Assembly: GCF_037975245.1 (NCBI RefSeq)
Contig: NC_092574.1
Span: 12,797,213 to 12,861,212 of the forward strand
Reading direction: 5' to 3'
Source of the DNA: Apostichopus japonicus
Taxonomy: Eukaryota; Echinodermata; Holothuroidea; Aspidochirotida; Stichopodidae
DNA: 64,000 bases
The stretch's first letter is position 1, and each line of letters begins with the position of its first letter. Positions 19,001-61,164 of this stretch are shown here, in pieces. The notes beneath the pieces were generated by a model. It searched no databases. It was not told where the DNA came from and saw only the letters and a program-made list of their open reading frames with translations. The translations under genes were made by a program, and so were the position numbers.

Positions 19001-22000
19001 ACCGCAGCTGTATGTACTGACTGTACACTAGTATCTAATTACCGACGGTAGCAAGCTGTGTGTGTATTTTCTGGGATCGATGGTGGTGTCTAACACTTCT
19101 GTTACACCTCATTCGAAACTAGGTCAGATTACCGGCATTAGACCTTTCTTTTTGCGCGAGTCTTCACACCCTTTAAACAGTAAAACTAGGTGACAGTGTC
19201 TTTCACTTTAATGGCAGTGCAAACAATGCTCAGCAAAAATGAACTTTTGCTAAAGTTGACTAGAAAGCAAAATTTAGTTTGAATGATTGTATGGATTTCC
19301 TTTCACTTCGTTTGGATAGCTTTATGCTACACCATTTGCATTCATAACAACTACTGTTGCATGTATATTGTATCATTAAATTTAATACTGCCTAGCTGTC
19401 TCATAAGTTTCAATTCTATCAACCAAGTTTATCTGTTTACATCTACAGTAGGTCAGTAGCAATTACACTTTGCATTGCAAGCACCTTAAAATGTGCTGTA
19501 AAATTTTGTCCAGTATTGAAATATAAATACAGTAAGGGAAAATTATGTTTAAAATGTGACTTGTAAGTTGCAGGACATCTCATTGTTGAATTGTGATTTT
19601 TTTATTGTCAAAGCAAAACACAGCATTCAAGTTATGGCTTGCAAAAACATATGACCAGCAATTTCTGTGACATTTAGTTTTAGACTTGCTCAAGATGTTA
19701 CTCTTGCACCTTTAAAGAAACATGAATGAAAATATGATATAAGAATATTGGTCATTGCTATCATCTTAAAGCAGCATTTTGCATCCTTTTCTATGATATT
19801 TCTCAACCTCACTGACTCCACTATGTCATAACGACATACATAACTAGTTTATCTATTTAAATCTTACTTCAAATGGTGGCATAAAAGTCGAAAAATTTGC
19901 AACTTTCAACTTTGTTTTTCTCCAAGATATTTTCCGTTGGAATCCCAATTAACCTCGCCCATAATATGAATATTTAAACACTACGAACGTCATTGACCAA
20001 TACGTAATCCAACACCAAGCTTGATTTGTGTACAGTCTATATGGTAGTTGTACCAGGGAGTTCCATAACAACTCCCTGGTTGTGCCAACGCAAAGTCTTG
20101 AATCTATTTTTAGCAACGGCTCATAACTAAACCTGCATCTCTAATTAGTTGAATTCAAACTAGTGGGTTTGGGGTACTGTATGCGATTAATTTTAAATGT
20201 GGAATTTTGTCGTGGATACTTTTCTCATTCTCTGCAAATATCCTTAATTACTCGCCAATTAACCATGTTGGCAGGGAAAAACTTGGCTGATATCTTAGTT
20301 TGCTGTTTTGTGATTGATCATGTAAAAAAACTCGATGGACATGTCGAAAAAAAAAAATAGAAAACGGCGACCAAACGCAAAATGCTGCTTTAATGCCAGC
20401 TTAATATAAATAATGATGTGACATTTGGCTTATAATTCTGTCAGTTGAAAACTTCAGTATTTTGCAATCCAAGGGTTGCAACGAATGTCGGCTACATAAG
20501 TGTAGCGAGTAGCAAACATGTACGAAAGAATATATGTTCCGGTGCACAGGGGTGTTTGAAGTTGCTTAAGAGAAATACTGGAAGCTCTCTGCATCTTGAT
20601 AAATAGGTCATATAACCTCATCCTCAGCAAAGATATAAATTTTTCAAATACAGTGATGACATCTGACAACATCAAGTTCAATATATTCTAATAGGAAACA
20701 AGAGCTTTTGAAGTACATCTACAGTACAGTACCATGTTGACATCCAAGATCACTCTACGGTACCATGGTGACATCCAAGATCACTCTACGGTACCATGGT
20801 GACATCCAAGATCACTCTACGGTACCATGGTGACATCCAAGATCACTCTACGGTACCATGGTGACATCCAAGATCACTCTACGGTACCATGGTGACATCC
20901 AAGATAACTCTACGGTACCATGGTGACATCCAAGATCACTCTACGGTACCATGGTGACATCCAAGATCACTCTACGGTATCATGGTGACATCAAAGATCA
21001 CCCTAAGGTACCATGGTGATATCCAAGATCACTCTACGGTACCATGGTGACATCCAAGATCACTCTACGGTACCATGGTGACATCCAAGATCACTTTATG
21101 GTACCATGGTGACATCTAAGATCACTCTATGGTACCATGGTGACATCCAAGATCACTCTACGGTACCATGGTGACATCCAAGATCACTCTACGGTACCAT
21201 GGTGACATCCAAGAGCACTCTACGGTATCATGGTGACATCCAAGATCACTCTATGGTTCCATGGTGACATCCAAGATAGCTGTAATTCCATTCCCTCTGT
21301 ATGAATCAAGGGTTTAGCTGGTCAAATTAAGTTACATTCAGTCAACCATATCTAGGTATCTAGGAATGAGCGTACATATATATGGGGATTTCAACTAGCA
21401 GCGTGGAATGTTTATCTCATTAAGAAGAGTGTTTATTAATAGTCTTTGACTGCAATATCCCTTAAATAGGGTGTTTATATTACAATATAATACACTCATA
21501 CAGGGAGGTTCACATCTTCAATTTGGCCAGAAGATCTACAAGATACAATTGAAGTTGAATTTTGAGACAATTATAATTATTTATCAAATTTTAACATATG
21601 AACAGCTAGAAACAAAAGATGCTCCTTGACATTCCATATTACTGTACAATAAAAGGTTTGTCATTCTTGGTGGACAACATAAACATTAACTTTCTAATGG
21701 ATTAATTGTCTCTTGATACTTAACCTAACCCAAAATTAACATTTAGGCCCATGAATATTCAGATCTATAGACTATTTATTAAACTTTATTCAGTTCCCAG
21801 TGACATCTTCTATACTTCTGTTCGGTTTGAGTAGTCGACTCAGCTACAACCATCATCTTCAAGACGAAATGCTTCTAATCCGACCTCTCACTAAGCTGTC
21901 TTATGAGTGCATTATTAGGAGTTGTTACGTACTGATCCCTTGTACAGAGCGTATCTCTGCCCTGGTATACATAATGTGTAATTATATATGAACATTGTGT

Positions 22001-23557
22001 ACGTTATACGTACAGTACTACAGAACATACGGAACAAATGAAACTTTTTGACCTACGACTTTACGTTTTACGCTTCTGCAATGGAACTTACCATTTGTAG
22101 GTGAGCATCGATATCTATGTGAATTGTTTTGACTTAAACACAGTTACTGACACCTTAATGTTCATAAGCACAAGTTTTTACTAATTGTCACAGGAATGTG
22201 AATGTTCAAACTTCAAACCGTAAACTTATAGTTTTAAAGCAGATAACCCTAAAACTTGTAAACTTGTACCATTTACGAAGAAGTGACTGTACGTACACTG
22301 TCATTGGTTTTTCATATGTGTTGTGTCATTCACCATGCTCTAAGTTTGTTTATTCATGTGTGTATAAAAGAACAGCGCTTGTCCAAAGCCAAAGAGGCCG
22401 GGTACGATCACAGGAGGAACAAATCACATACAGAAGCAATCACAGGAACAAATTGCTCATAGCGTGATGAATAGTAAGGATCAACACAGCACATTTGGCG
22501 AAGAAAAATCGGCCCATACGCCTTAAAAAAAGCTAGTGAGGTACCACTGATCAGGAACAAATGCACCATGGTATATGGACCTGTAAAGTAATTTTACATA
22601 ATGTTGGTAGGGCTTGTGTGTTACATGAAATGATATACACTATGACAACTTCATGAAAGGTAAACAAATGAAAGGATGATAACTTACATCTTGCTTTTGC
22701 TTTGCTTCCAGTATAAAGAGTTTCGAACTTGGCGTGTCTTCATCCAGCTTCCACTGATAGGCAAATAGGGTATTGTAACCTGCAGTAAACTTGAAAACAT
22801 TGTGAAGACGGTGTTCAAATAACATGGACCCTTTCTCGTCAGAAATGCCTAGCAATCCCTTCTCTGAAATTTGTAATAATAGAGACACTTTGTCCTTATT
22901 ATTTCGTTTCTTTTCAGCGATTATCCATGGTATCATTGCTTGTGTAACTCTTTTATCAAGTGTAATGTTACCATGATAAGTAAGCTGAAATACTCTCAAA
23001 TTACTTCGTGTGTGTCGAACGTCAGAAGTTGATCTCGGCCTTCCAGTTGTATACTGATCATTTAAATACATCGATGAATTAGGATTGTAATCATCTGCCG
23101 AACGGCTTTTTGTGAGATGACTGCTAGTGGATTTCGGATTAGAGTCATTAACAGTTAATGTAAAGGACGGCATTCTGGTATTGGTAAGAGATTTAGTGTT
23201 AGTAACACTAACAGTTGGTGCAACGTTATAACCTGAACCTGCACTTTTAACAGTTACCGAATCAGTCGCAGTTGCGACGGAGTCATTACCGTTAGAAACG
23301 TCTATGATGGGAGCTTGTTTCACACCAGCATCCAGACATGTTGGCGAGAAAACATCACTTGCAGAATTATCTAAGTCACTGTCAGTGAATCCCATGCCAC
23401 TGTCTGTCGAATAATTCTTGTATTTTGCAAATTTAGCCATTCCGGAAGTCCTGAATTTCGAACTTGTTGGATGCCTTCTGCCCGCTTTCACGTTCACGGT
23501 GCTAGTGCAATGTAAATTGGATTTAGCATCCCGCGGTCCGCATTTGAATGGCCTCAT
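895..23557 (-). CDS. TBC1D1/4: TBC1D1/TBC1D4 (AS160)-type Rab GTPase-activating protein, N-terminal eight exons; 3' part outside window
   Basis: In vertebrates this family is an Akt/AMPK-controlled GAP for Rab8/10/14 that holds GLUT4-type storage vesicles in the cytoplasm. Eight exons can be read on the minus strand, all with GT/AG sites and matching phases: 23557-22688, 6406-5714, 5086-4985, 3601-3478, 3224-3133, 2660-2514, 1674-1582 and 1017-895. Joined, they give about 748 residues from the most upstream ATG. The order is PTB1 (residues ~187-300), a linker, PTB2 (starting at [11 protein letters not shown], with [14 protein letters not shown] and FGFICRE strands), the ETCPMH/HKLC motif after PTB2, and the [17 protein letters not shown] motif that matches the vertebrate linker. 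The TBC catalytic domain is not in the window. Vertebrates have two paralogues; I cannot tell whether this is the single pre-duplication gene. The first exon abuts a giant transposon (23551-40129), so the start codon is uncertain. Confidence 0.9.
1470..1527. repeat. 29-bp direct duplication
   Basis: The string gagggcacatact occurs twice, 29 bp apart, with similar following bases, inside a TBC1D1/4 intron just downstream of exon 7. Confidence 0.6.
1582..1674 (-). CDS. TBC1D1/4: TBC1D1/4 exon 7 (conserved linker motif)
   Basis: 31 codons between acceptor tttttaccctag and donor gtaagt, phase 0. It contains [17 protein letters not shown], aligned with vertebrate NKAKRSLTSSLENIFSR, a well conserved landmark just before the Akt-regulated region of the linker. 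Confidence 0.9.
2514..2660 (-). CDS. TBC1D1/4: TBC1D1/4 exon 6
   Basis: 49 codons between acceptor ctgtttctag and donor gtaaat, phase 0 at both ends. The [19 protein letters not shown] segment resembles the vertebrate [20 protein letters not shown]. The rest is a polar linker. Confidence 0.88.
3133..3224 (-). CDS. TBC1D1/4: TBC1D1/4 exon 5 (helical segment)
   Basis: The exon is 92 nt, entering in phase 1 and leaving in phase 0 at a gtaagt donor. It reads [20 protein letters not shown] and ends SLAAFLR. It is charged and helical and corresponds to the stretch after the Cys motif in the family. Confidence 0.88.
3478..3601 (-). CDS. TBC1D1/4: TBC1D1/4 exon 4 (PTB2 C-terminal helix, Cys motif)
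   Basis: The exon is 124 nt, acceptor tttgctctttcag and donor gtcagt, ending in phase 1. It reads [17 protein letters not shown], then [17 protein letters not shown]. The vertebrate counterpart is VDEVMLTLKQAFS and CEACPMHSLHKLC, so the helix and the Cys/His cluster are both conserved. Confidence 0.93.
4985..5086 (-). CDS. TBC1D1/4: TBC1D1/4 exon 3 (PTB2 core)
   Basis: A 34-codon exon between acceptor ttcttctacag and donor gtaggt, phase 0 at both ends. It reads [18 protein letters not shown] and continues to a [11 protein letters not shown] end. This matches the PTB2 strand pair that in vertebrate TBC1D4 reads HFGFICRE and CYVFQC. Confidence 0.92.
5714..6406 (-). CDS. TBC1D1/4: TBC1D1/4 exon 2 (inter-PTB helix, PTB2 start, Ser-rich insert)
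   Basis: The exon is 693 nt (231 codons), entered after a good acceptor (ttatcttttcag) and left at cag|gtaagt, phase 0 at both ends. It begins with [17 protein letters not shown], which completes the PTB1 helix. It continues with [28 protein letters not shown] in two pieces that match the vertebrate PTB2 entrance (start FEVLYCGRV; later [10 protein letters not shown]). An acidic, Ser-rich insert of about 110 residues follows, then [17 protein letters not shown] and the FTEISFCSQ strand. A basic LRRQDTF stretch in the insert could be a basophilic-kinase site; that is inference. Confidence 0.92.
11971..12172. repeat. ~105-bp tandem duplication
   Basis: Two adjacent diverged copies share ttacacaat, then aaagccagtttttttaagca, then acattaagttatgaaaattac-like sequence. 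The second copy carries a longer T run. Confidence 0.75.
13372..13940. repeat. 37-bp minisatellite, about 15 units
   Basis: The unit is built on atcagtcccc, ctatcagtcccc and aaccagggaatcattt. It has an internal 10-11-bp direct repeat (atcagtcccc twice) and a few shortened units near 13800-13900. The period is not a multiple of three, so the apparent 140-residue open frame is only the unit read in three phases in turn (37 residues per cycle), not a gene. It lies in the large TBC1D1/4 intron. Confidence 0.97.
18804..18857 (-). CDS. possible alternative first exon of TBC1D1/4
   Basis: An ATG followed by 18 codons ([18 protein letters not shown]) ends at a phase-0 donor, cag|gtacag. The next acceptor on this strand is the phase-0 acceptor at 6406, so splicing would give an in-frame protein that lacks PTB1. 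The sequence upstream of the ATG is CpG-richer than the surrounding intron and holds an acgtcact CRE-like site. The ATG is also preceded by a pyrimidine tract and cag, so a 54-nt cassette exon is possible, though that would break the PTB1 helix. No transcript evidence is available. Confidence 0.35.
19138..19171 (+). repeat. 34-bp dispersed motif, copy 1
   Basis: The string matches 48617-48650 at 32 of 34 positions; its core is tttctttttgcg followed by gagtcttcacaccc. The flanks do not match. It lies upstream of the possible alternative first exon on the opposite strand. Confidence 0.7.
20052..20080. repeat. perfect 11-bp-arm hairpin
   Basis: accagggagtt and aactccctggt are exact reverse complements separated by seven bases. 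Isolated in the intron; no function is evident. Confidence 0.8.
20735..21275. repeat. 31-bp minisatellite, about 17 units
   Basis: Each unit carries ggtaccatggtgacatcc and aagatcactctac, repeated head to tail with scattered substitutions. The overlapping self-complementary words GGTACC and CCATGG occur in most units. It lies in the TBC1D1/4 intron, about 1.4 kb from the PTB1 exon. Confidence 0.97.
22688..23557 (-). CDS. TBC1D1/4: TBC1D1/4 first coding exon (PTB1)
   Basis: The exon is 870 nt, open from an ATG at 23557 to a consensus donor (gtaagt) after KQKQD, phase 0. Residues 1-180 are Ser/Thr-rich and low in conservation. From residue ~187 the pattern [10 protein letters not shown], then [32 protein letters not shown] and FAYQW fits the first PTB domain of the family. 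The C-terminal PTB helix is split by the intron and continues in the exon at 6406 ([16 protein letters not shown]). The first ATG (23557-23555) lies inside the terminal repeat of the neighbouring transposon and has a poor start context. The next Met, codon 40 at 23440, has a G at -3 and +4 and is the likelier ancestral start. Confidence 0.85.
23542..23550. repeat. left target-site duplication of the giant element
   Basis: atttgaatg, flush with the left terminal repeat and identical to 40130-40138. It is part of the TBC1D1/4 first exon. Confidence 0.85.
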
Positions 23558-23600
23558 TGAAGGTAGCAGCCACTAAGAGCAGACACTAACAGCAACCACT
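23551..23600. repeat. left terminal inverted repeat
   Basis: Pairs with 40080-40129. It has internal repetition of gcagccacta-type words. The reverse strand of its first bases contains the ATG that opens the TBC1D1/4 reading frame. Confidence 0.85.
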
Positions 23601-23723
23601 AAGAAAAAAAGGACAGTAAGACATGACACACAGTACTACAACTGCGGTCGTGTGTGTTTGTTATAACCAGTGTTACCAGCGACAGTTGACGAAAAAACGC
23701 TAGATTGGCGAAAATAAAACCCC

Positions 23724-26700
23724 AAACGCGCTGTATATACTTAATGTGTAATGATCAGAATAATGATTTTTTTTTTCAAAATCGATTAACTTTAGTTATA
23801 GAGCCTACTAGGATGTCCGGTTAGCACCACATTGAAGTAGATAGGTTCATCTTTCACGTGATATACCTCTACTATCGGTAACAAATATGATTTCTTGACC
23901 AAAAGTGGCCTTGAAGTTTTAACCCCGATACGGACATCTCTAAACGCGCTGTATATACGTAATGTGTAATGATCAGAAAAATGGTTAATTTGTATTTTTT
24001 TCAAAATCGATTAACTTTAGTTATGGAGCCTACTAGGATGTCCGGTTAGCACCACATTAAAGTAGAAAGGTTCCTCTTTTACGTGGTATACCTCTACTAT
24101 CGGTAACAAAAATGATTTCTTGACCAAAAATGGCCTTAAAGTTTTAACCCCGATACGGACATCTCTAAACGCGCTGTATATACGTAATGTGTAATGATCA
24201 GAAAAATGGTTAATTTTTATTTTTTTCAAAATCGATTAACTTTAGTTATGGAGCCTACTAGGATGTCCGGTTAGCACCACATTGAAGTAGAAAGGTTCCT
24301 CTTTCACGTGGTATACCTCTACTATCGGTAACAAAAATGATTTCTTGACCAAAAATGACCTTGAAGTTTTAACCCCGATACAGACCCTTCTCTAAACGCG
24401 CTGTATATACGTAATGTGTAATGATAAGAAAAATGGTTAATTTTTATTTTTTTCAAAATCGATTAACTTTAGTTATGGAGCCTACTAGGATGTCCGGTTA
24501 GCACCACATTGAAGTAGAAAGGTTCCTCTTTCACGTGGTATACCTCTACTATCGGTAACAAAAATGATTTTTTGACCAAAAATGACCTTGAAGTTTTAAC
24601 CCCGATACAGACCCTTCTCTAAACGCGCTTTATATACGTTATGTGTAATGATCAGAAAAATGTTAATTTTTAATTTTTTTCAAAATCGATTAACTTTAGT
24701 TATGGAGCCTACTAGGATGTCCGGTTAGCACCACATTAAAGTAGAAAGGTTCCTCTTTTACGTGGTATACCTCTACTATCGGTAACAAAAATGATTTCTT
24801 GACCAAAAGTGACCTTGAAGTTTTAACCCCGATACGGACATCTCTAAACGCGCTGTATATACGTTATGTGTAATGATCAGAAAAATTTATGATTTTTATT
24901 TTTTTCAAAATCGATTAACTTTAGTTATGGAGCCTACTAGGATGTCCGGTTAGCACCACATTAAAGTAGAAAGGTTCCTCTTTCACGTGGTATACCTCTA
25001 CTATCGGTAACAAAAATGATTTCTTGACCAAAAATGGCCTTAAAGTTTTAACCCCGATCCGGACATCTCTAAACGCGCTGTATATACGTAATGTGTAATG
25101 ATAAGAAAAATGGTTAATGTTTATTTTTTTCAAAATCGATTAACTTTAGTTATGGAGCCTACTAGGATGTCCGGTTAGCACCACATTGAAGTAGAAAGGT
25201 TCCTCTTTCACGTGGTATACCTCTACTATCGGTAACAAAAATGATTTTTTGACCAAAAATGACCTTGAAGTTTTAACCCCGATACAGACCCTTCTCTAAA
25301 CGCGCTGTATATACGTAATGTGTAATGATCAGAAAAATGTTAATTTTTAATTTTTTTCAAAATCGATTAACTTTAGTTATGGAGCCTACTAGGATGTCCG
25401 GTTAGCACCACATTAAAGTAGAAAGGTTCCTCTTTTACGTGGTATACCTCTACTATCGGTAACAAAAATGATTTCTTGACCAAAAGTGACCTTGAAGTTT
25501 TAACCCCGATACAGACCCTTCTCTAAACGCGCTGTATATACGTAATGTGTAATGATAAGAAAAATGGTTAATTTTTATTTTTTTCAAAATCGATTAACTT
25601 TAGTTATGGAGCCTACTAGGATGTCCGGTTAGCACCACATTGAAGTAGAAAGGTTCCTCTTTCACGTGGTATACCTCTACTATCGGTAACAAAAATGATT
25701 TTTTGACCAAAAATGACCTTAGGGTTTTAACCCCGATACAGACCCTTCTCTAAACGCGCTGTATATACGTTATGTGTAATGATCAGAAAAATGTTAATTT
25801 TCAATTTTTTTCAAAATCGATTAACTTTAGTTATGGAGCGTACTAGGATGTCCGGTTAGCACCACATTAAAGTAGAAAGGTTCCTCTTTTACGTGGTATA
25901 CCTCTACTATCGGTAACAAAAATGATTTCTTGACCAAAAGTGACCTTGAAGTTTTAACCCCGATACAGACCCTTCTCTAAACGCGCTGTATATACGTTAT
26001 GTGTAATGATCAGAAAAATGGTTAATTTTTATTTTTTTCAAAATCGATTAACTTTAGTTATGGAGCCTACTAGGATGTCCGGTTAGCACCACATTAAATT
26101 AGAAAGGTTCCTCTTTTACGTGGTATACCTCTACTATCGGTAACAAAAATTATTTCTTGACCAAAAGTGACCTTGAAGTTTTAACCCCGATACAGACCCT
26201 TCTCTAAACGCGCTGTATATACGTTATGTGTAATGATCAGAAAAATTTATGATTTTTATTTTTTTCAAAATCGATTAACTTTAGTTATGGAGCCTACTAT
26301 CGGTAACAAAAATGATTTCTTGACCAAAAGTGACCTTGAAGTTTTAACCCCGATACAGACCCTTCTCTAAACGCGCTGTATATACGTTATGTGTAATGAT
26401 CAGAAAAATGGTTAATTTTTATTTTTTTCAAAATCGATTAACTTTAGTTATGGAGCCTATTAAGATGTCCGGTTAGCACCACATTAAAGTAGAAAGGTTC
26501 CTCTTTTACGTGGTATACCTCTACTATCGGTAACAAAAATGATTTCTTGACCAAAAATGGCCTTAAAGTTTTAACCCCGATCCGGACATCTCTAAACGCG
26601 CTGTATATACGTAATGTGTAATGATAAGAAAAATGGTTAATTTTTATTTTTTTCAAAATCGATTAACTTTAGTTATGGAGCCTACTAGGATGTCCGGTTA

Positions 26701-29700
26701 GCACCACATTGAAGTAGAAAGGTTCCTCTTTCACGTGGTATACCTCTACTATCGGTAACAAAAATGATTTTTTGACCAAAAATGACCTTGAAGTTTTAAC
26801 CCCGATACAGACCCTTCTCTAAACGCGCTGTATATACGTAATGTGTAATGATCAGAAAAATGGTTAATTTTTATTTTTTTCAAAATCGATTAACTTTAGT
26901 TATGGAGCCTACTAGGATGTCCGGTTAGCACCACATTGAAGTAGAAAGGTTCCTCTTTCACGTGGTATACCTTTACTATCGGTAACAAAAATGATTTCTT
27001 GACCAAAAATGACCTTGAAGTTTTAACCCCGATACAGACCCTTCTCTAAACGCGCTGTATATACGTAATGTGTAATGATCAGAAAAATGGTTAGTTTTTA
27101 TTTTTTTCAAAATCGATTAACATTTAGTTATGGAGCCTACTAGGATGTCCGGTTAGCACCACATTAAAGTAGAAAGGTTCCTCTTTTACGTGGTATACCT
27201 CTACTATCGGTAACAAAAATGATTTCTTGACCAAAAGTGACCTTGAAGTTTTAACCCCGATACGGACATCTCTAAACGCGCTGTATATACGTTATGTGTA
27301 ATGATCAGAAAAATGTTAATTTTCAATTTTTTTCAAAATCGATTAACTTTAGTTATGGAGCCTACTAGGATGTCCGGTTAGCACCACATTAAAGTAGAAA
27401 GGTTCCTCTTTTACGTGGTATACCTCTACTATCGGTAACAAAAATGATTTCTTGACCAAAAGTGACCTTGAAGTTTTAACCCCGATACAGACCCTTCTCT
27501 AAACGCGCTGTATATACGTTATGTGTAATGATCAGAAAAATGGTTAATTTTTATTTTTTTCAAAATCGATTAACTTTAGTTATGGAGCCTACTAGGATGT
27601 CCGGTTAGCACCACATTAAAGTAGAAAGGTTCCTCTTTTACGTGGTATACCTCTACTATCGGTAACAAAAATGATTTCTTGACCAAAAGTGACCTTGAAG
27701 TTTTAACCCCGATACAGACCCTTCTCTAAACGCGCTGTATATACGTTATGTGTAATGATCAGAAAAATTTATAATTTTTATTTTTTTCAAAATCGATTAA
27801 CTTTAGTTATGGAGCCTACTAGGATGTCCGGTTAGCACCACATTGAAGTAGAAAGGTTCCTCTTTTACGTGCATGGTATACCTCTACTATCGGTAACAAA
27901 AATGATTTTTTGACCAAAAATGACCTTGAAGTTTTAACCCCGATACAGACCCTTCTCTAAACGCGCTGTATATACGTAATGTGTAATGATCAGAAAAATG
28001 GTTAATTTTTATTTTTTTCAAAATCGATTAACTTTAGTTATGGAGTCTACTAGGATGTCCGGTTAGCACCACATTGAAGTAGAAAGGTTCCTCTTTCACG
28101 TGGTATACCTCTACTATCGGTAACAAAAATGATTTTTTGACCAAAAATGACCTTGAAGTTTTAACCCCGATACAGACCCTTCTCTAAACGCGCTGTATAT
28201 ACGTAATGTGTAATGATCAGAAAAATTTATGATTTTTATTTTTTTCAAAATCGATTAACTTTAGTTATGGAGCCTACTAGGATGTCCGGTTAGCACCACA
28301 TTAAAGTAGAAAGGTTCCTCTTTTACGTGGTATACCTCTACTATCGGTAACAAAAATGATTTCTTGACCAAAAGTGACCCTGAAGTTTTAACCCCGATAC
28401 AGACCCTTCTCTAAACGCGCTGTATATACGTAATGTGTAATGATAAGAAAAATGGTTAATTTTTATTTTTTTCAAAATCGATTAACTTTAGTTATGGAGT
28501 CTACTAGGATGTCCGGTTAGCACCACATTGAAGTAGAAAGGTTCCTCTTTCACGTGGTATACCTCTACTATCGGTAACAAAAATGATTTTTTGACCAAAA
28601 ATGACCTTGAAGTTTTAACCCCGATACAGACCCTTCTCTAAACGCGCTGTATATACGTAATGTGTAATGATCAGAAAAATGGTTAATTTTTATTTTTTTC
28701 AAAATCGATTAACTTTAGTTATGGAGTCTACTAGGATGTCCGGTTAGCACCACATTAAAGTAGAAAGGTTCCTCTTTTACGTGGTATACCTCTACTATCG
28801 GTAACAAAAATGATTTTTTGACCAAAAATGACCTTGAAGTTTTAACCCCGATACAGACCCTTCTCTAAACGCGCTGTATATACGTAATGTGTAATGATCA
28901 GAAAAATGGTTAATTTTTATTTTTTTCAAAATCGATTAACTTTAGTTATGGAGTCTACTAGGATGTCCGGTTAGCACCACATTAAAGTAGAAAGGTTCCT
29001 CTTTTACGTGGTATACCTCTACTATCGGTAACAAAAATGATTTTTTGACCAAAAGTGACCTTGAAGTTTTAACCCCGATACGGACATCTCTAAACGCGCT
29101 GTATATACGTTATGTGTAATGATCAGAAAAATTTATGATTTTTATTTTTTTCAAAATCGATTAACTTTAGTTATGGAGCCTACTAGGATGTCCGGTTAGC
29201 ACCACATTAAAGTAGAAAGGTTCCTCTTTTACGTGGTATACCTCTACTATCGGTAACAAAAATGATTTCTTGACCAAAAGTGACCTTGAAGTTTTAACCC
29301 CGATACGGACATCTCTAAACGCGCTGTATATACGTTATGTGTAATGATCAGAAAAAGTTATGATTTTTATTTTTTTCAAAATCGATTAACTTTAGTTATG
29401 GAGCCTACTAGGATGTCCGGTTAGCACCACATTAAAGTAGAAAGGTTCCTCTTTTACGTGGTATACCTCTACTATCGGTAACAAAAATGATTTCTTGACC
29501 AAAAATGGCCTTAAAGTTTTAACCCCGATCCGGACATCTCTAAACGCGCTGTATATACGTTATGTGTATTGATCAGAAAAATGTTAATTTTCAATTTTTT
29601 TTCAAAATCGATTAACTTTAGTTATGGAGCCTACTAGGATGTCCGGTTAGCACCACATTGAAGTAGAAAGGTTCCTCTTTCACGTGGTATACCTCTACTA

Positions 29701-32700
29701 TCGGTAACAAAAATGATTTTTTGACCAAAAATGACCTTGAAGTTTTAACCCCGATACAGACCCTTCTCTAAACGCGCTGTATATACGTAATGTGTAATGA
29801 TCAGAAAAATGTTAATTTTTAATTTTTTTCAAAATCGATTAACTTTAGTTATGGAGCCTACTAGGATGTCCGGTTAGCACCACATTAAAGTAGAAAGGTT
29901 CCTCTTTTACGTGGTATACCTCTACTATCGGTAACAAAAATGATTTCTTGACCAAAAGTGACCTTGAAGTTTTAACCCCGATACAGACCCTTCTCTAAAC
30001 GCGCTGTATATACGTAATGTGTAATGATCAGAAAAATGTTAATTTTTAATTTTTTTCAAAATCGATTAACTTTAGTTATGGAGCCTACTAGGATGTCCGG
30101 TTAGCACCACATTAAAGTAGAAAGGTTCCTCTTTTACGTGGTATACCTCTACTATCGGTAACAAAAATGATTTTTTGACCAAAAATGACCTTGAAGTTTT
30201 AACCCCGATACAGACCCTTCTCTAAACGCGCTGTATATACGTAATGTGTAATGATCAGAAAAATGTTAATTTTTAATTTTTTTCAAAATCGATTAACTTT
30301 AGTTATGGAGCCTACTAGGATGTCCGGTTAGCACCACATTAAAGTAGAAAGGTTCCTCTTTTACGTGGTATACCTCTACTATCGGTAACAAAAATGATTT
30401 CTTGACCAAAAGTGACCTTGAAGTTTTAACCCCGATACGGACATCTCTAAACGCGCTGTATATACGTTATGTGTAATGATCAGAAAAATTTATGATTTTT
30501 ATTTTTTTCAAAATCGATTAACTTTAGTTATGGAGCCTACTAGGATGTCCGGTTAGCACCACATTAAAGTAGAAAGGTTCCTCTTTTACGTGGTATACCT
30601 CTACTATCGGTAACAAAAATGATTTCTTGACCAAAAATGGCCTTAAAGTTTTAACCCCGATCCGGACATCTCTAAACGCGCTGTATATACGTAATGTGTA
30701 ATGATAAGAAAAATGGTTAATTTTTATTTTTTTCAAAATCGATTAACTTTAGTTATGGAGCCTACTAGGATGTCCGGTTAGCACCACATTAAAGTAGAAA
30801 GGTTCCTCTTTTACGTGGTATACCTCTACTATCGGTAACAAAAATGATTTCTTGACCAAAAATGACCTTGAAGTTTTAACCCCGATACAGACCCTTCTCT
30901 AAACGCGCTGTATATACGTAATGTGTAATGATCAGAAAAATGTTAATTTTTAATTTTTTTCAAAATCGATTAACTTTAGTTATGGAGCCTACTAGGATGT
31001 CCGGTTAGCACCACATTAAAGCAGAAAGGTTCCTCTTTTACGTGGTATACCTCTACTATCGGTAACAAAAATGATTTCTTGACCAAAAATGGCCTTAAAG
31101 TTTTAACCCCGATCCGGACATCTCTAAACGCGCTGTATATACGTAATGTGTAATGATAAGAAAAATGGTTAATTTTTATTTTTTTCAAAATCGATTAACT
31201 TTAGTTATGGAGCCTACTAGGATGTCCGGTTAGCACCACATTGAAGTAGAAAGGTTCATCTTTCACGTGGTATACCTCTACTATCGGTAACAAAAATGAT
31301 TTCTTGACCAAAAATGACCTTGAAGTTTTAACCCCGATACAGACCCTTCTCTAAACGCGCTGTATATACGTAATGTGTAATGATCAGAAAAATGTTAATT
31401 TTTAATTTTTTTCAAAATCGATTAACTTTAGTTATGGAGCCTACTAGGATGTCCGGTTAGCACCACATTAAAGTAGAAAGGTTCCTCTTTTACGTGGTAT
31501 ACCTCTACTATCGGTAACAAAAATGATTTCTTGACCAAAAATGGCCTTAAAGTTTTAACCCCGATCCGGACATCTCTAAACGCGCTGTATATACGTTATG
31601 TGTAATGATCAGAAAAATGTTAATTTTTAATTTTTTTCAAAATCGATTAACTTTAGTTATGGAGCCTACTAGGATGTCCGGTTAGCACCACATTAAAGTA
31701 GAAAGGTTCATCTTTTACGTGGTATACCTCTACTATTGGTAACAAAAATGATTTCTTGACCAAAAATGGCCTTAAAGTTTTAACCCCGATACGGACATCT
31801 CTAAACGCGCTGTATATACGTTATGTGTAATGATCAGAAAAATGGTTAATTTTATTTTTTTTTTAAATCGATTAACTTTAGTTATGGAGCCTACTAGGAT
31901 GTCCGGTTAGCACCACATTAAAGTAGAAAGGTTCCTCTTTTACGTGGTATACTTTTACTATCGGTAACAAATATGATTTCTTGACCAAAAGTGACCTTGA
32001 AGTTTTAACCCCGATCCGGACATCTCTAAACGCGCTGTATATACGTAATGTGTAATGATCAGAAAAATGGTTAATTTTTATTTTTATCAAAATCGATTAA
32101 CTTTAGTTATGGAGCCTACTAGGATGTCCGGTTAGCACCACATTAAAGTAGAAAGGTTCTTCTTTCACGTGGTATACCTCTACTATCGGTAACAAAAATG
32201 ATTTTTTGACCAAAAGTGACCTTGAAGTTTTAACCCCGATACAGACCCTTCTCTAAACGCGCTGTATATACGTTATGTGTAATGATCAGAAAAATGTTAA
32301 TTTTTAATTTTTTTCAAAATCGATTAACTTTAGTTATGGAGCCTACTAGGATGTCCGGTTAGCACCACATTAAAGTAGAAAGGTTCCTCTTTTACGTGGT
32401 ATAACTCTACTATCGGTAACAAAAATGATTTCTTGACCAAAAGTGACCTTGAAGTTTTAACCCCGATACAGACCCTTCTCTAAACGCGCTGTATATACGT
32501 TATGTGTAATGATCAGAAAAATGGTTAATTTTTATTTTTTTCAAAATCGATTTACTTTAGTTATGGAGCCTACTAGGATGTCCGGTTAGCACCACATTAA
32601 AGTAGAAAGGTTCCTCTTTTACGTGATATATCTCTACTATCGGTAACAAAAATGATTTCTTGACCAAAAATGGCCTTGAAGTTTTAACCCCGATACAGAC

Positions 32701-32701
32701 C
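23724..32701 (-). repeat. left satellite arm: about 40 units of ~225 bp
   Basis: Landmarks repeated every 225-228 bp are cctactaggatgtccggtta, ctactatcggtaacaaa, aaacgcgctgtatatacg and caaaatcgattaac. Unit variants differ at the end of the Asp/Arg-coding segment (atacggacatctc versus atacagacccttctc) and before the poly-T (ggttaattttt, gttaatttttaattttt, tttatgattttt), in a mixed order. One unit near 26290 carries a ~160-bp internal deletion between two ctacta words. Left-most units are the most diverged. The minus-strand 70-residue frame present in several units is broken by the variants in most others and is not treated as a gene. Confidence 0.97.
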
Positions 32702-33241
32702 CCTAACAAAACTGATTTCTTGATTAGATTTAATTATGATTCAATTTTGTCCTTCTTGTCCGAACAAACTGAATATTTGTGCTCCATAGCTACTGTTTGT
32801 ATGAAATCTACTTCTATGCTCCACCTTTACCGAAATATCAGACTATATAGACAAAATATGTAATCAAATAAAATTGATAACTTTTCGTCGTACTGTATTT
32901 TCTTTCAAAAGAAGTTAGTCATTTACCTTTTTGAGGCATGACAAGAAAATCTTCACATCGTACCATAAGACCACATATAACCAACATGGAGTCTGTGTGG
33001 AATACATTGTACATTTAACACACGATCGGATACTTTTGTTAACTAGTACGAATCATCCTGCAGTATGATCTTGAGGTTCTAAAGAATGACTGACGATATT
33101 AATCTCTCTTCTCATTACCTCTTTGTAAAAGTATAATTTGTAATATTATCACAACAATAAAACGTCTTATAAGTTAAACAGACTCTCTATGAGACATGAC
33201 AAACCCTATATTCACACTTAGTTACATCCAGTAGCATATCA
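32702..33241. other. left part of the element's loop
   Basis: Non-satellite sequence between the left arm and the inserted hAT-like element. No coding sequence that I recognise. It ends in aatacaag, the target duplicated by that insertion. Confidence 0.6.
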
Positions 33242-33249
33242 AATACAAG

Positions 33250-34257
33250 CACTGGCGGATCCAGGGCCTCTGTTTGGGAGGGGCCAAAGTGGCATTAGAG
33301 TGATATGGGGAAGGGGTCTAAGGGGATGGGGTGCCCCCCTCCCCTTTGGAAAATTTTCTATTGCTGAATGCCCTCAGATGCAATTTGGTGCGACAAAAGT
33401 GTACAATGGTGATGTTAATTTACTTCTAAAAAAAATGTTTCCCAGGTGTAATTTTCTAAAATATTTATAAAGGAAAGTTGGGATCATCTTTCTCAAGAAA
33501 TTTTATTTCTCATAGGTTATAAATTTCTTACAACCAGCCTGTAACTGCAAAATGGTGTTAAACTGTAAATCCTCATGCTCATACATTTACATAGCTCCCA
33601 ACTCTTGAGAAGGCAAATGCTGGTCCATGCCACGAATCGCCGTCCTGGGGGAGGGGTATAAGGGGAGGGGGTGTCCCCCTCCCCTATTGAATTTTTTTTG
33701 AATCCTGGTGATGCCTACATGTAAAATGGTGGCACTTAGAAAGGCTTTTGTCACCCAAAATTTTCTGAGAAATATGCCTTTTTTTTTGTGTAACATCAAT
33801 AAATTGAATGGTAGGTGATAATTCATTCTTTCCCGTGGCAGGAAAATGTTCGCTGCTCGCCCCAATTCAAAAGTTCAAATGATGCTGTAAAGGAGGTTTT
33901 ATACTCTATTATGCTAAATGCTAAAGAAATGATGGTTGCTAAGTCAAAATTCGATGCAATTTTTTTTATGTATACTTGACAATTACAATGCGGTTTTTTT
34001 CGGACGCTTGTGTGGGTCAGCGGGTTTAGGTGTTAGACTGCGGGTCTAATTCCCGCGAATCGCGGGTCAGTTGGGAGCTCTGCATTTAATTTTAAACCAG
34101 AAAACAAAAAGGTTTAGACTAGTCTACCACTGCTATTCCTCTCGATTTTTTAAATTTCCAATCATACGATTTAGCGGATGTTCGGAAACACTTTTTTGCT
34201 CACCTTTGGGGGGGGGGGCATGGCCCCCCTTGGCCCCCCCCCTTGGATCCGCCAGTG
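33250..34257. mobile_element. 1.0-kb hAT-like non-autonomous element
   Basis: Terminal repeats cactggcggatcca (left) and tggatccgccagtg (right), flanked by a perfect 8-bp duplication aatacaag at 33242-33249 and 34258-34265. The 8-bp duplication and CA...TG ends are typical of hAT. No transposase inside. It contains the G-rich core gggggaggggtataagggg and the word cagatgcaatttggtg found in several other elements of this window. It is nested inside the giant foldback element and splits its loop. Confidence 0.92.
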
Positions 34258-34270
34258 AATACAAGAACAA

Positions 34271-34663
34271 ATGTATGATCCCAATCTATTTTACTCTCCA
34301 GTACTTATGAAAGAATTGGAGACTGTTTTATTACCGTCATCTGCTTTTTGGTCTGGGTTACTTCTCGGTGACTTGAACCGACATATTAATATAGATGTAG
34401 ATATAAATAGTATTTCCAGAAACGTTCGTAAAGTTTCGGTACCACGAACAATTGGTCATGCTGAATAGAGAATGAAAGTTCTTAAATCTAATCAGCTGAG
34501 TGATCGCAACATGAAAAGAATTGATGAATTACTTTCTGTTTATTACCAAGACCTGATTGGAATACAGAGACGATACAGTGATCAGATGATCAGATCATAC
34601 AAAACTAAGTTAAAACATAACACAAAGACAGTCGAAGAGTACGGAGAGCCAAACGTTCCATAA
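34271..34663 (+). pseudogene. broken transposase-like C-terminal fragment
   Basis: Two open stretches in one frame are separated by a single TAG at 34466. The first reads NLFYSPVLMKELETVLLPSS then FWSGLLLGDLNRH; the second begins MKVLKSNQLSDRNMKRIDEL and ends soon after KTVEEYGEPNVP. The order (YSP, then WSG-LLLGDL-RH, then a lysine-rich RMKVLKS stretch and a helical tail) recalls the C-terminal part of large DDE-type transposase-like proteins of aquatic animals. That resemblance is from memory of the pattern and is inference. The 5' part is missing or lies beyond the hAT-like insertion. It sits in the loop of the foldback element, where the original transposase would be expected. Confidence 0.4.
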
Positions 34664-34789
34664 ATGTCGAAAAAGAAAGTGGAGTGTCCAAGTTAATATA
34701 TATGTCCAATTCGATATCAACATGTTACAATTCCATATGAACATATCGAGACAAAATACCAATATGTCATTACGTCTATCAACATGTCA

Positions 34790-35190
34790 AATTCAACATA
34801 TATATACGTTATGTGTAATGATCAAAAAAATGATTAATTCCTGTGTGGGCAATTGGGCCTTTGAGGTTGCTGCATGGGCCCCGTTACAGTTAAAAATGAA
34901 GTCGTTGGTATTTTTAGATACCGCAATGTCCAATAGGGCCAACACCTCTAAAAGAATTATCCTGATTTTGTTAACATAATCAAATCATGTGTGGGCCATG
35001 GGCACTTTATGGCTGTTGCCTGGGGCCCGGTACAGATAAAAGTCGTAGATGGTATTTTTTGGTTTCTCCAATGTATAAAGGGTCCAATGCAACTATAGAA
35101 TAATCCTTGTGTCTTTGCACATGATCAAATCACGCGTGGGCCATGGGCCCTTGAGGTTGTCTGGGCCATGGTAGAGGATAAATTTGCAGT
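34790..35190 (+). repeat. inner inverted repeat, left copies of a ~140-bp second satellite
   Basis: Three diverged tandem units carry gtgtgggc-atgggc, ttgaggttg, gcccgttacag, ggtatttttagataccg and catgatcaaatca words. The outermost part pairs closely with 36050-36235 in opposite orientation, including gggcctttgaggttgctgca. Confidence 0.8.
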
Positions 35191-35565
35191 AAATCGACCT
35201 GTGACGTCATTATGATGGCTCGCATCTTGCAGTGATGTGAGCCTAGTTTATTGCATTGCACTGCACTTGGCCCGCGTTTACTTTCAACCCAGTCTGCATC
35301 GATTCGATACTCAACTGGACCGGGAACCCAGAAAATTTGAAAAGAGACAGAGGGTTTAATGGGCAGCTTATGTCCGTTTATGACCAGGATTCAAGGTTAT
35401 GTGTTGCTGCCGTGCCACACAATGTGCGTGTATGTAGTCTAAATGTGCCTTCAATTAAAATAGGGGGCTCAAATGTTGATTTAATCATGTGAAAGACGCA
35501 AGGCAAAAGCGCTGGATAAAACTCAAAGTAAGATACTTTTAGAACCATAGCAACGACAGTAATTG
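35190..35565. other. centre of the foldback element
   Basis: About 370 bp of non-repeated sequence at the symmetry centre. It has an open frame of 78 codons at 35256-35492 on the plus strand with no recognised motif. Confidence 0.5.
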
Positions 35566-36195
35566 TACCTTGTGACGGGCCCTGCAGAAGGGCCCATCAA
35601 AATGGTATTAATCATGCGAAAAGAGACAAGGATAATTCATTTTGCGGTACACCAGTCAAACATTGGGGTGTCCCAAAATACTAATTACAGCAACTTTATG
35701 ATGTACATGGGCCCATGCAGGCAGCAACCAAAAAAGGCCTGTGGCCCACATATGATTCATTTATGTGAAATGAGAGCAGGGTGATTCTTAAAGTGGCATT
35801 GGACCCTTTGGAAATTGGGGTATCCAAAAATACTAATAACAACAACTTTATGATGTACCAGGACCCATACAGCAGCCAGAAAGGGCCCGTGGCCCACACA
35901 TGATTTAATCATGTGAAAAGAGAGCAGTATGATTTCTTTTTATTGGCGCTGGACCATAAGGTTGTCGGGTATTAAAAAAAGAAAAACCTATGACTACAAA
36001 TTTATCCTCTACCATGGCCTCAAGGGCCCATGGCCCACACGTGATTTGATTATGTTAACAAAAAGCAGGATAATTCGTTTACAGGTGTTGGCCCTATTGG
36101 ACATTGCGGTATCCAAAAATACCAACGACTTCATATTTTAACTGTTACGGGACCCATGCAGCAACCTCAAAGGCCCAATTGCCCACACAGGAATT
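35566..36195 (-). repeat. inner inverted repeat, right copies of the second satellite
   Basis: Four to five diverged units in opposite orientation to 34790-35190, with aaagggcccgtggcccacac, tgatttaatcatgtgaaaag, tatccaaaaatac and catgcagcaacctcaaagg. The joining sequence at 36180-36235 (aattaatcattttttggatc) passes directly into the right arm of the 225-bp satellite. Confidence 0.8.
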
Positions 36196-39100
36196 AATCA
36201 TTTTTTGGATCATTACACATAACGTATATACAGCGCGTTTAGAGATGTCCGTATCGGGGTTAAAACTTTAAGGCCATTTTTGGTCAAGAAATCATTTTTG
36301 TTACCGATAGTAGAGTTATACCACGTGAAAGATGAACCTGTCTGCTTTAATGTGGTGCTAACCGGACATGCCAGTAGGCTCCATAACTAAAGTTAATCGA
36401 TTTTGAAAAAAATAAAAATTAACCATTTTTCTGATCATTACACACTACGTATATACTGCGCGTTTAGAGATGTCCGTATCGGGGTTAAAACTTTAAGGGA
36501 ATTTTTGGTCAAGAAATCATTTTTGTTACCGATAGTAGAGGTATACCACGTGAAAGATGAACCTGTCTACTTTAATGTGGTGCTACCCGGACATGCCAGT
36601 AGGCTCCATAACTAAAGTTAATCGATTTTGAAAAAAATAAAAATTATAAATTTATCTGATCATTACACATAACGTATATACTGCGCGTTTAGAGATGTCC
36701 GTATCGGGGTTAAAACTTTAAGGCCATTTTTGGTCAAGAAATCATTTTTGTTACCGATAGTAGAGGTATACCACGTGAAAGATGAACCTGTCTACTTTAA
36801 TGTGGTGCTAACCGGACATGCCAGTAGGCTCCATAACTAAAGTTAATCGATTTTGAAAAAATAAAAATTAACCATTTTTCTTATCATTACACATTACGTA
36901 TATACAGCGCGTTTAGAGATGTCCGTATCGGGGTTAAAACTTTAAGGCCATTTTTGGTCAAGAAATCATTTTTGTTACCGATAGTAGAGGTATACCACGT
37001 GAAAGATGAACCTGTCTACTTTAATGTGGTGCTAACCGGACATGCCAGTAGGCTCCATAACTAAAGTTAATCGATTTTGAAAAAATAAAAATTATAAATT
37101 TATCTGATCATTACACATAACGTATATACTGCGCGTTTAGAGATGTCCGTATCGGGGTTAAAACTTTAAGGCCATTTTTGGTCAAGAAATCATTTTTGTT
37201 ACCGATAGTAGAGGTATACCACGTGAACGATGAACCTGTCTACTTTAATGTGGTGCTAACCGGACATGCCAGTAGGCTCCATAACTAAAGTTAATCGATT
37301 TTGAAAAAATAAAAATTAACGATTTTTCTTATCATTACACATTACGTATATACAGCGCGTTTAGAGATGTCCGTATCGGGGTTAAAACTTTAAGGCCATT
37401 TTTGGTCAAGAAATCATTTTTGTTACCGATAGTAGAGGTATACCACTTGAAAGATGAACCTGTCTACTTTAATGTGGTGCTAACCGGACATGCCAGTAGG
37501 CTCCATAACTAAAGTTAATCGATTTTGAAAAAAATAAAAATTAACCATTTTTCTGATCATTACACATAACGTATATACAGCGCGTTTAGAGATGTCCGTA
37601 TCGGGGTTAAAACTTTAAGGCCATTTTTGGTCAAGAAATCATTTTTGTTACCGATAGTAGAGGTATACCACGTGAAAGATGAACCTGTCTACTTTAATGT
37701 GGTGCTAACCGGACATGCCAGTAGGCTCCATAACTAAAGTTAATCGATTTTGAAAAAATAAAAATTAACCATTTTTCTTATCATTACACATTACGTATAT
37801 ACAGCGCGTTTAGAGATGTCCGTATCGGGGTTAAAACTTTAAGGCCATTTTTGGTCAAGAAATCATTTTTGTTACCGATAGTAGAGGTACTTCACGTGAA
37901 AGATGAACCTGTCTACTTTAATGTGGTGCTAACCGGACATGCCAGTAGGCTCCATAACTAAAGTTAATCGATTTTGAAAAAATAAAAATTAACCATTTTT
38001 CTGATCATTACACATTAGATATACAGCGCGTTTAGAGATGTCCGTATCGGGGTTAAAACTTTAAGGCCATTTTTGGTCAAGAAATCATTTTTGTTACCGA
38101 TAGTAGAGGTATACCACGTGAAAGATGAACCTGTCTACTTTAATGTGGTGCTAACCGGACATGCCAGTAGGCTCCATAACTAAAGTTAATCGATTTTGAA
38201 AAAAATAAAAATTAACGATTTTTCTGATCATTACACATTACGTATATACAGCGCGTTTAGAGATGTCCGTATCGGGGTTAAAACTTTAAGGGAATTTTTG
38301 GTCAAGAAATCATTTTTGTTACCGATAGTAGAGGTATACCACGTGAAAGATGAACCTGTCTACTTTAATGTGGTGCTAACCGGACATGCCAGTAGGCTCC
38401 ATAACTAAAGTTAATCGATTTTGAAAAAAATAAAAATCATAAATTTTTCTGATCATTACACATAACGTATATACAGCGCGTTTAGAGATGTCCGTATCGG
38501 GGTTAAAACTTTAAGGCCACTTTTGGTCAAGAAATCATTTTTGTTACCGATAGTAGAGGTATATCACGTGAAAGATGAACCTGTCTACTTTAATGTGGTG
38601 CTAACCGGACATGCCAGTAGGCTCCATAACTAAAGTTAATCGATTTTGAAAAAAATAAAAATTATAAATTTATCTGATCATTACACATAACGTATATACG
38701 GCGCGTTTAGAGATGTGCGTATCGGGGTTAAAACTTTAAGGCCATTTTTGGTCAAGAAATCATTTTTGTTACCGATGGTAGAGGTATACCACGTGAAAGA
38801 TGAACCTGTCTACTTTAATGTGGTGCTAACCGGACATGCCAGTAGGCTCCATAACTAAAGTTAATCGATTTTGAAAAAATAAAAATTAACCATTTTTCTT
38901 ATCATTACACATTACGTATATACAGCGCGTTTACAGATGTCCGTATCGGGGTTAAAACTTTAAGGGAATTTTTGGTCAAGAAATCATTTTTGTTACCGAT
39001 AGTAGAGGTACATCACGTGAAAGATGAACCTGTCTACTTTAATGTGGTCCTTTTCGGACATCCTAGTAGGCTCCATAACTAAAGTTAATCGATTTTTGAA

Positions 39101-39300
39101 AAAAACAATCATTTTTTGGATCATTACACATTAGATATACAGCGCGTTTAGAGATGTCCGTATCGGGGTTAAAACTTTAAGGCCACTTTTGGTCAAGAAA
39201 TCATTTTTGTTACCGATAGTAGAGGTATACCACGTGAAAGAGGAACCTTTCTACTTTAATGTGCTAACCAGACATGCCAGTAGGCTCCATAACTAAAATT
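36196..39300 (+). repeat. right satellite arm: about 14 units of ~225 bp, inverted
   Basis: The same satellite as the left arm in opposite orientation. Nearly every unit has gatgaacctgtctacttta and ggacatgccagtaggctcc, whereas left-arm units (reverse complemented) have gaggaacctttctacttta and ggacatcctagtaggctcc. Each arm has therefore been homogenised separately. The last complete unit (39120-39290) carries left-arm-type bases (gaggaacctttctac). Confidence 0.97.
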
Positions 39301-39530
39301 AATTGATTTTGAAGAAGAAAGAAAAAAAAATCAATATTTTAAAACGTTTAGGCCACTTTTGGGCAAAAATTCGGCTTTGTTACCGATAGTAGGTATTACA
39401 CGTGAAAGAAGAAATTGTTTTCTTTGATTTGATGCTAACCGGACCTACTAACTAGGTCGATAACTCAAATTAACCGATTTTGAAATAATAATACGTTTGG
39501 ATCATAACACATTACCGCGCCTTTCGAGCT
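39301..39530 (+). repeat. degenerate outermost satellite copy
   Basis: Recognisable words remain (ttaccgatagtaggtat, gatgctaaccggacc, taaccgattttgaa, ggatcataacacatta), but with many substitutions and gaps. This looks like the oldest, non-homogenised edge of the array. Confidence 0.8.
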
Positions 39531-40079
39531 AATTTTCCCATTTGCATCCCACTCCTGTTAGGATCGAACGGTTTGTAGCCATCGAATTTCAATAAATCAA
39601 AGTGTTACTGGCTGTTTTTTCATACCACTTGTAAGAGGAATAACTTAACATCGTCATTGTACCCCTCTTGACTGTTGCATATTCTCATAAATTAATTGTT
39701 TAGACATTTGAAAAAAAAAAAAAAATGGTATAAAAATTGCCGCCATTTACGCCTTTCTCCACAAGATTTGGTAGGATCACAAGTTTCAGTTCAATATGGA
39801 TGCAGATTTCGTCCACCATTAAATTCCAAAATTATATTACATGAAAGAGCAACAACTCATCTCTCATATGGTGCAATTATTGGCATTTTACAGTATTCAT
39901 AGCGTTAATTATTATCGCTTTAAAACAGGTACGAAAAAGTAGCAGTCTTGTTATTGTCCGCTAATTTAGGCTGCCCTTAGTGGCTGCTGGGGATCAACTT
40001 TCCCGCCACAGCGTACCCAGCGCTCGTCACAGTGTACAAACATCAGTGGCCAACGGCGTGTAACGTTGATGTATACACT
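39531..40079. other. right subterminal region of the foldback element
   Basis: Between the satellite and the terminal repeat. It includes a poly-A run near 39711 and another gcagccacta-like stretch at 39968-39994 (ggctgcccttagtggctgct), an internal echo of the terminal repeat. Confidence 0.6.
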
Positions 40080-40129
40080 ATTGGCTGCTGTTAGTGGCTG
40101 CTCTTAGTGGCTGCTACGTTCAAACAGGT
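40080..40129. repeat. right terminal inverted repeat
   Basis: Ends ctgctcttagtggctgctac gttcaaacaggt; reverse complement of 23551-23600 with about seven mismatches. Confidence 0.85.
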
Positions 40130-40138
40130 ATTTGAATG
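40130..40138. repeat. right target-site duplication of the giant element
   Basis: atttgaatg, identical to 23542-23550 and flush with the right terminal repeat. Confidence 0.85.
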
Positions 40139-61130: not shown

Positions 61131-61164
61131 GGCCGTAGGGAGTGTAGGGTACAGCGAGGATGAA

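Follow-up and report, generated by a model that had tools for sequence, protein, structure and literature searches.

The window analyzed here, a stretch of 64,000 nucleotides from the echinoderm Apostichopus japonicus (NCBI RefSeq assembly GCF_037975245.1, contig NC_092574.1, positions 12,797,213 to 12,861,212 of the forward strand), contains a block of 16,579 bp (23551-40129), hereafter the fam1 element. This block is very probably a non-autonomous foldback DNA transposon of the cut-and-paste type, with inverted satellite arrays as arms, similar to Rehavkus (a Repbase superfamily or clade next to the Mutator-like elements, MULEs) and mobilized in trans. Elements of this family integrate as single units, with precise ends and duplication of 9 bp, and have been active recently, their dispersed copies being nearly identical at the ends. 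The copies examined are non-autonomous, and those that bear a central loop carry in it a transposase remnant.

Directly outside both ends of the element lies a perfect 9-bp target site duplication (TSD), ATTTGAATG, whose two copies (23542-23550 and 40130-40138) are the only occurrences of this sequence on the + strand of the window. Facing inward, the ends form an inverted repeat that matches at 39 of 42 aligned bp and does not include the first few bases on either side; the outermost ~6 bp are unlike (GCCTCA on the left vs ACCTGT on the right, read on the other strand), and 13-bp units of the type AGCAGCCACTAAG are present in both ends. The parts follow one another as left end, satellite in + orientation, loop, satellite in - orientation and right end (Table 1). 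A preliminary description, made from the letters of this stretch alone, had proposed a single inserted unit with these limits, bounded by terminal repeats of ~50 bp and a perfect 9-bp duplication. The limits proved exact to the base and the terminal inverted repeat (TIR) was borne out, except for the outermost bases. The arm of ~9 kb made of 225-bp units that it had also described corresponds to the left arm (~9.0 kb, 227-bp unit, ~95% match) but not to the right one, an inverted array of 225-bp units that reaches only ~3.1 kb, so that the arms are unequal. Long inverted tandem-repeat arms, dispersed sites and TSDs, which define the foldback class structurally, are all present; the proposed identity as a foldback transposon is supported, and can be made more precise: fam1 is a non-autonomous, Rehavkus-like variant of giant size, and at least two more families of this kind exist in the genome.

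Table 1. Parts of the fam1 element and sequence features within it (positions in the window)
Feature	Position	Strand	Remarks
Left TSD copy, ATTTGAATG	23542..23550		exact second copy at 40130-40138
Left end, 173 bp	23551..23723	+	boundary common to other copies; unique sequence preceded by a terminal inverted repeat of 42-48 bp that has 13-bp subterminal units (23565-23604)
Left arm, tandem array of ~227-bp satellite, ~9.0 kb	23724..32702	+	38 full monomers on the + strand
Central loop, 3.5 kb	32703..36191	+	present in 23 of 33 copies by protein match, in either orientation
Later insertion in the loop, 1.0 kb	33250..34257		CACTGGCGGATCC termini, 8-bp duplication AATACAAG
Transposase C-terminal remnant, ~125 amino acids	34307..34693	+	inside the loop; broken, with in-frame stops; Rehavkus-like
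Tandem repeat of ~148 bp in the loop	35662..35979	+	about two copies; repeat scan
Right arm, left-arm satellite inverted, ~3.1 kb	36192..39326	-	14 full monomers on the - strand
Right end, ~0.8 kb	39327..40129	+	boundary also from right-end matches of other copies; degenerate satellite followed by unique sequence and the terminal inverted repeat, whose 13-bp units lie at 40082-40115
Right TSD copy, ATTTGAATG	40130..40138		second copy of 23542-23550

Other copies were searched for in 671,581,487 bases distributed over 35 contigs. A left-end query of 401 bp gave at least 27 other places matching from query positions 137-152 (152 being 23551) through 400, and a right-end query at least 39 other long matches, whose ends all fall at query positions 582-601 (590 being 40129); both counts are lower bounds, taken from the best 40 of 539 candidates on the left and the best 40 of 180 on the right. 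Because the matches of other copies start and stop at the same query positions, the limits of the element are not due to chance. Allowing up to two mismatches, the TIR core had 183 matches genome-wide and its reversed control none.

Both ends of 32 further copies were then available which, with the window, make 33 two-ended copies; four right ends fetched alone and some further ends are not part of this count. A perfect 9-bp TSD of its own flanks 30 of the 33 copies, window included, and could be read directly in 25 of the 32 fetched end pairs. In four others it emerged on closer reading, namely in the two copies of a nest on C3 and the outer copy of a nested locus on C7 (TSDs given below), and in C8:31941346, where the TSD, TCTTACGCG, lies beside a 10-bp deletion in the right end. 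Copy lengths range from 1,673 to 32,157 bp (36,789 bp including a nested copy), and one fam1 locus of 57 kb contains a 35-kb element of a second family, fam2 (see below). Thus, the copies with the same ends, arms of differing length and their own duplications that the preliminary description had proposed to look for do exist. An empty site, which it had suggested looking for in alleles or sister species, was found within the genome itself: on C3, one copy is inserted in the left end of another at positions 90-98, the inner copy being flanked on each side by AACTGCGGT and the outer one having ATAAACAGA as its TSD. Since AACTGCGGT is single in the left end of the window element and in other unoccupied left ends, this nest provides a direct view of a site before and after insertion. 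As for target choice, a palindromic or strong consensus was rejected for the 29 fam1 target sites compared, which have weak A/T excesses only.

A satellite with inverted symmetry could in principle arise by local amplification that took palindromic form at a single site, in which case the terminal repeats and the 9-bp match would be accidental. The recurrence of the same ends at dozens of unrelated sites, the individual TSDs of nearly all copies and the nested empty site leave this explanation with practically no credit, and we consider it refuted by the TSDs at multiple sites. It is also true that long near-identical arrays are hard to assemble, and arms could have been collapsed or misjoined. 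However, random misjoins would not leave TSDs in 30 of 33 copies, and the assembly of A. japonicus (671.60 Mb, 23 chromosomes) was built from PacBio HiFi reads (PMC10344927; here and below, such numbers refer to the sections of each paper on which we draw). An assembly artefact is therefore very improbable as an explanation of the block, while the assembled arm lengths may be off.

The right ends of 19 copies were compared to assess their divergence: 14 differ from the rest by a mean of 1.0-1.6%, the other five, which are older, by 2.7-3.9%, and in a few pairs not one of ~590 bp differs. Separately, two copies, L082 (C14:27136050-27137480) and L083, were seen to have two right-type ends, their flanks forming an outer inverted repeat and not a direct 9-bp duplication. 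The right flank (GCTAGGCTGCTCAGTACGTG...) is nearly identical among these two copies and the right ends read alone (L073-L075).

Two fam1 left ends, on C7 and C21, are each interrupted by a different element. The guest on C7 belongs to fam2 (ATCTGGCTGAAGTTGGCGAACAATAAGAGCG) and is flanked by two copies of CTGCGGTCG; that on C21 belongs to a third family, fam3 (ACCGGTGTGAAGTTAGATACTTATTCCCCG), and is flanked by two copies of GGTCGTGTG. Genome-wide, end matches amount to 50 for fam2 and 262 for fam3, with 0 in the controls. Pairing of the places listed, with unpaired ends dropped, gave at least 20 fam2 elements of 6.9-35.3 kb, one of them containing a fam1 copy, and at least 33 fam3 elements of 3.1-16.8 kb (from the first 100 fam3 places). 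Arm anatomy was read in one copy of each family, 800 bp per end. In fam2, tandem units of 178 bp at one end are matched in inverted orientation at the other, the TIR contains 13-bp units as in fam1, and the TSD has one mismatch; fam3 has tandem units of ~180-185 bp at both ends, inverted, and the perfect TSD GCCTAGTAT. Altogether, the 9-bp TSD is perfect in both fam3 cases and in one of the two fam2 cases, the other having the single mismatch. When these end stretches were compared with the fam1 element, fam3 matched over 15-27 bp only and fam2 not at all. The genome therefore holds at least three families of like build, with different TIRs, unrelated satellite arms and 9-bp duplications.

Five nested insertions among the three families, met incidentally and not through a survey, all lie within ~105 bp of an element end. 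Left ends of fam1 were hit at 90-98 by fam1, at 92-100 by fam2 and at 96-104 by fam3, each time with a separate 9-bp duplication; in addition, fam1 is found inside the fam2 TIR at C16:23298368 (TSD TAAGAGCGA) and on the border of a fam2 element on C7, where TCTATCTGG is the outer TSD of the nested locus. Positions 90-104 of the fam1 left end are a possible insertion hotspot.

With respect to the transposase, the frame in the loop of the window element (34307-34693, corresponding to C14:12831519-12831905) is a C-terminal piece with 41% identity to a frame of 2,017 amino acids (aa). A search with 100 aa of this remnant gave 54 matches, some of them in giant intact frames of 2,017, 1,555 and 1,509 aa; in one 2,017-aa frame, a 2.2-kb piece is open throughout. 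Overall, the intact frames of relatives outside the three families' elements span 1,000-2,000 aa. A 633-aa query taken from the 2,017-aa frame gave at least 71 matches, from the best 70 of 96 candidates, and only its C-terminus was matched in fam1 loops. The catalytic stretches of four divergent copies have DATG and S/TD in all four cases and HxCxxH in three; one class of DDE transposases is marked by two D's, C-x2-H and a final E. After removing the fam1-loop matches and merging neighbors by hand, 34 loci with relatives of this protein were left. The 20 fam2 pairs enclose one of these loci and the 33 fam3 pairs another, the expectation by length being 0.017 and 0.015, respectively. The first (C16:30259713-30261571, within the fam2 copy C16:30254171-30277860) is a 996-aa frame whose matching part contains stops, and the second (C17:9347587-9349128, within the fam3 copy C17:9340120-9353625) a 688-aa frame with one stop. 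Another relative, at C16:5229529, is ~8 kb from an unpaired fam3 end; a longer, broken transposase series (C8:36991231-36994507) lies ~6 kb from a fam1 left end, and further pieces are found between right-type and left-type fam1 ends at C10:11850837-11858461. Among the 18 loci whose frames have at least 996 aa, 14 carry a PHD finger (PF00628, assigned to transposase loci by position and frame length) within that open frame, including the 996-aa frame of the fam2 element, and the other four have one no more than 2.5 kb upstream. This evidence concerns the frames of the relatives, the fam1 remnant being C-terminus only. No viral relatives of the transposase were found by tblastn among IMG/VR pattern matches.

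Several observations weigh against the reading of fam1 as a Rehavkus-like transposon moved in trans. Three of the 33 copies have no clean TSD: C3:13396426, with a fam3 element 15 bp away, C14:26098156, with differing flanks (TTTGTTTAC vs TTTGTTACC), and C1:18638520, which adjoins another copy. A fam1 copy with an intact transposase was not found, the best candidates (C8:36991231-36994507 and C10:11853371-11854409) being broken, and there is no PHD match near the two fam3 transposase pieces among the best 150 of 256 candidates. Comparison of the transposase pieces with Pfam, NCBIfam and PDB gave nothing above cut-off, only chance-level matches (for example DUF6715, E 0.03), so the kinship with Rehavkus is based on the TSD, the PHD finger and the architecture and not on alignment with a named protein. 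Finally, two places matching the MULE transposase domain PF10551 (C11:10789890 and C16:45449706) are ~12 kb from an unpaired fam3 end, and a MULE could for this reason sit inside an unlisted fam3 element. These two places would suit a foldback element that owes its mobility to a canonical Mutator transposase (MULE, PF10551) or to that of another superfamily such as P, as is the case of Galileo, and so would the 9-bp TSD, which fits MULEs as well (PMC6446971, PMC3169594), and the foldback form, known from several superfamilies (PMC4079207). Yet none of the 38 PF10551 places in the genome is inside a paired fam1, fam2 or fam3 interval, and PF10551 matched neither a 733-aa transposase piece nor two further catalytic pieces (L095 and L096). 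Moreover, it is a related, Pfam-silent protein that is present inside one fam2 and one fam3 element, with a remnant in the fam1 loops. Transposition by a MULE or another superfamily is thus improbable compared with a Rehavkus-like enzyme. Of the PF10551 places, 13 are on a single contig, C17.

The ten loop-bearing copies that were segmented share an identical order of parts, four of them with an unfetched gap in mid-element. The 1.0-kb later insertion in the loop, which by convention we take to be of hAT type, is common to loop-bearing copies and was marked in the segmentation as a miniature inverted-repeat transposable element, with rough limits 33243-34258. The loop is missing from six copies (C18:3919558, C16:3389594, C15:6354705, C7:14879183, C12:22654864 and C1:18638520) and reduced to a scrap in two others (C14:26098156 and C8:31941346). 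Using the coding remnant as marker, its orientation is the same as in the window in 14 copies and opposite in nine. In a tree built from the end sequences of 26 copies, of which 21 have a loop (two rows with partial left ends were not included), these orientations need at least five changes, with 4-6 in bootstraps and a mean of 6.6 when shuffled, and a single origin was obtained in 0% of 200 bootstrap trees. The two rows nearest to the window element by their ends, with one and two differences, carry the loop in the opposite orientation, the nearest one having a partial left end. This would fit repeated flipping. The alternative, namely separate amplification of two old lineages that already differed in loop orientation, without any flipping by recombination, can draw on the 57 of 500 shuffles that need as few changes and on the fact that the well-supported branches, which are few, force by themselves only one change of orientation, a point that counts against our interpretation. 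Given the results of the tree and of the nearest rows, we find it unlikely.

Changes in the arms were followed through 565 full monomers from 16 copies (19 sequences), whose mean distance is 7.2%. In the left arm of the window element, the nearest relative lies in that same arm for 29 of 38 monomers (for six, in a tie with another copy) and never in the opposite arm. Nearest relatives in the opposite arm were commonest in C1:3915054 (14 of 40 monomers, three more tied) and also occurred in C5:22970642 (4 of 36, six more tied). Homogenization between left and right arms as a rule was rejected, since such relatives are confined to some copies; as the nearest relatives are mostly from the same arm, the arms appear to grow mostly separately. 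Some fam1 copies have later inserts of their own: a retroelement-like one with a 774-aa gag/integrase-like frame (L019:5427-8287), one with inverted termini of the TAGTGTTGCGCCGATA type (L025:2869-4679) and one with minisatellite termini of the GGACAATT type (L066:2281-5133).

The most likely mechanism is one in which a PHD-bearing, Rehavkus-like (Mutator-related) DDE transposase, encoded by a few larger relatives, would move fam1 in trans. The enzyme would recognize, and presumably bind, the ends of ~48 bp with their 13-bp subterminal units, and cut-and-paste movement would leave the 9-bp duplication. The arms would lengthen or shorten by local tandem duplication or unequal exchange within each arm, and homologous recombination between the inverted arms might flip the loop or, when accompanied by deletion, remove it. 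A broader and doubtful proposal, which we put forward tentatively, is that the Rehavkus-type lineage acts as a mobile satellite factory, where each family would have acquired its own unrelated satellite of ~180-225 bp as arms and carry tens of monomers intact to new sites, the arms would serve as an inversion switch for the loop, and insertion would take place preferentially in the ends of the same and sister families.

Several known systems resemble these elements. The TU elements of sea urchins, to which the preliminary description had pointed, are foldback elements with tandem-repeat arms, an 8-bp TSD and arm units of ~15 bp, so that fam1 would differ in its 9-bp TSD. Rehavkus itself has a 9-bp TSD, a PHD finger and a minisatellite, and has been described in arthropods and annelids (PMC6446971); Rehavkus-1_TC of Tribolium is a 9.5-kb element with 164-bp units in its inverted termini, mostly in arrays of five and eight monomers (PMC10218199). 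The elements described here share with it the 9-bp TSD, the PHD-finger transposase (in the relatives) and a satellite in the inverted termini (225-227 bp in fam1, 178 bp in fam2 and ~180-185 bp in fam3). They differ in that single arms reach at least 40 full monomers and elements 20-32 kb, in that the copies examined are non-autonomous, and in their echinoderm host, the published hosts in the sections of PMC6446971 drawn on being arthropods and annelids. Tetris of Drosophila virilis is likewise a non-autonomous foldback element with ~220-bp tandem repeats in its TIRs and an 8-10-bp TSD; unlike in fam1, its TIRs do not exceed 1,735 bp, its arrays of kilobase size are described as satellite-like, and the sections drawn on report that no transposase was found for it (PMC4079207). 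Tm1, a Mutator/Foldback element of root-knot nematodes, is similar in its TSD of 8-10 bp, mostly 9, in the asymmetric terminal 7 bp outside the inverted repeat and in its subterminal units of ~14 bp, but its transposase is of the Phantom/MULE type and satellite arms of the size of those in fam1 are not described in the corresponding sections (PMC3169594). Galileo, of the P superfamily, is a foldback element whose TIRs contain ~210-bp tandem repeats that expand independently in each arm, although with 7-bp flanking sequences, at most three units and TIRs of up to ~1.26 kb (PMC3573991).

In the vicinity of the element, an open frame of 305 aa on the - strand (22640-23557) begins at its left border, the first codons being supplied by the element, and has no Pfam match. 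When the flanks are joined across the insertion, the frame stays open 16 codons past the site, so that the element may have inserted into an exon or close to one. Elsewhere in the window there is a separate tandem array at 59406-61131 (385-bp unit, 4.5 copies, 96% match), and two minisatellites at 20725-21277 (31 bp, 17.8 copies) and 13375-13941 (37 bp, 16 copies).

Papers describing these elements were not found among open-licence PMC papers, judged by titles and the beginnings of abstracts. As far as that literature shows, the kind of element is already known, and what is new is the size, the existence of three parallel families and the host. The elements bear on how satellites come to be dispersed over a genome: entire arrays, tens of monomers long, travel as parts of TSD-flanked insertions, so that each copy offers separate measures of transfer, growth and flipping. 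If our interpretation is right, Rehavkus-like elements would be extended to a phylum not named in the sections of PMC6446971 drawn on, where they are several times larger than their closest known counterparts. The results also connect all three families with a transposase that Pfam does not recognize. As the copies are nearly identical, polymorphism and activity of these elements can be tested in living animals.

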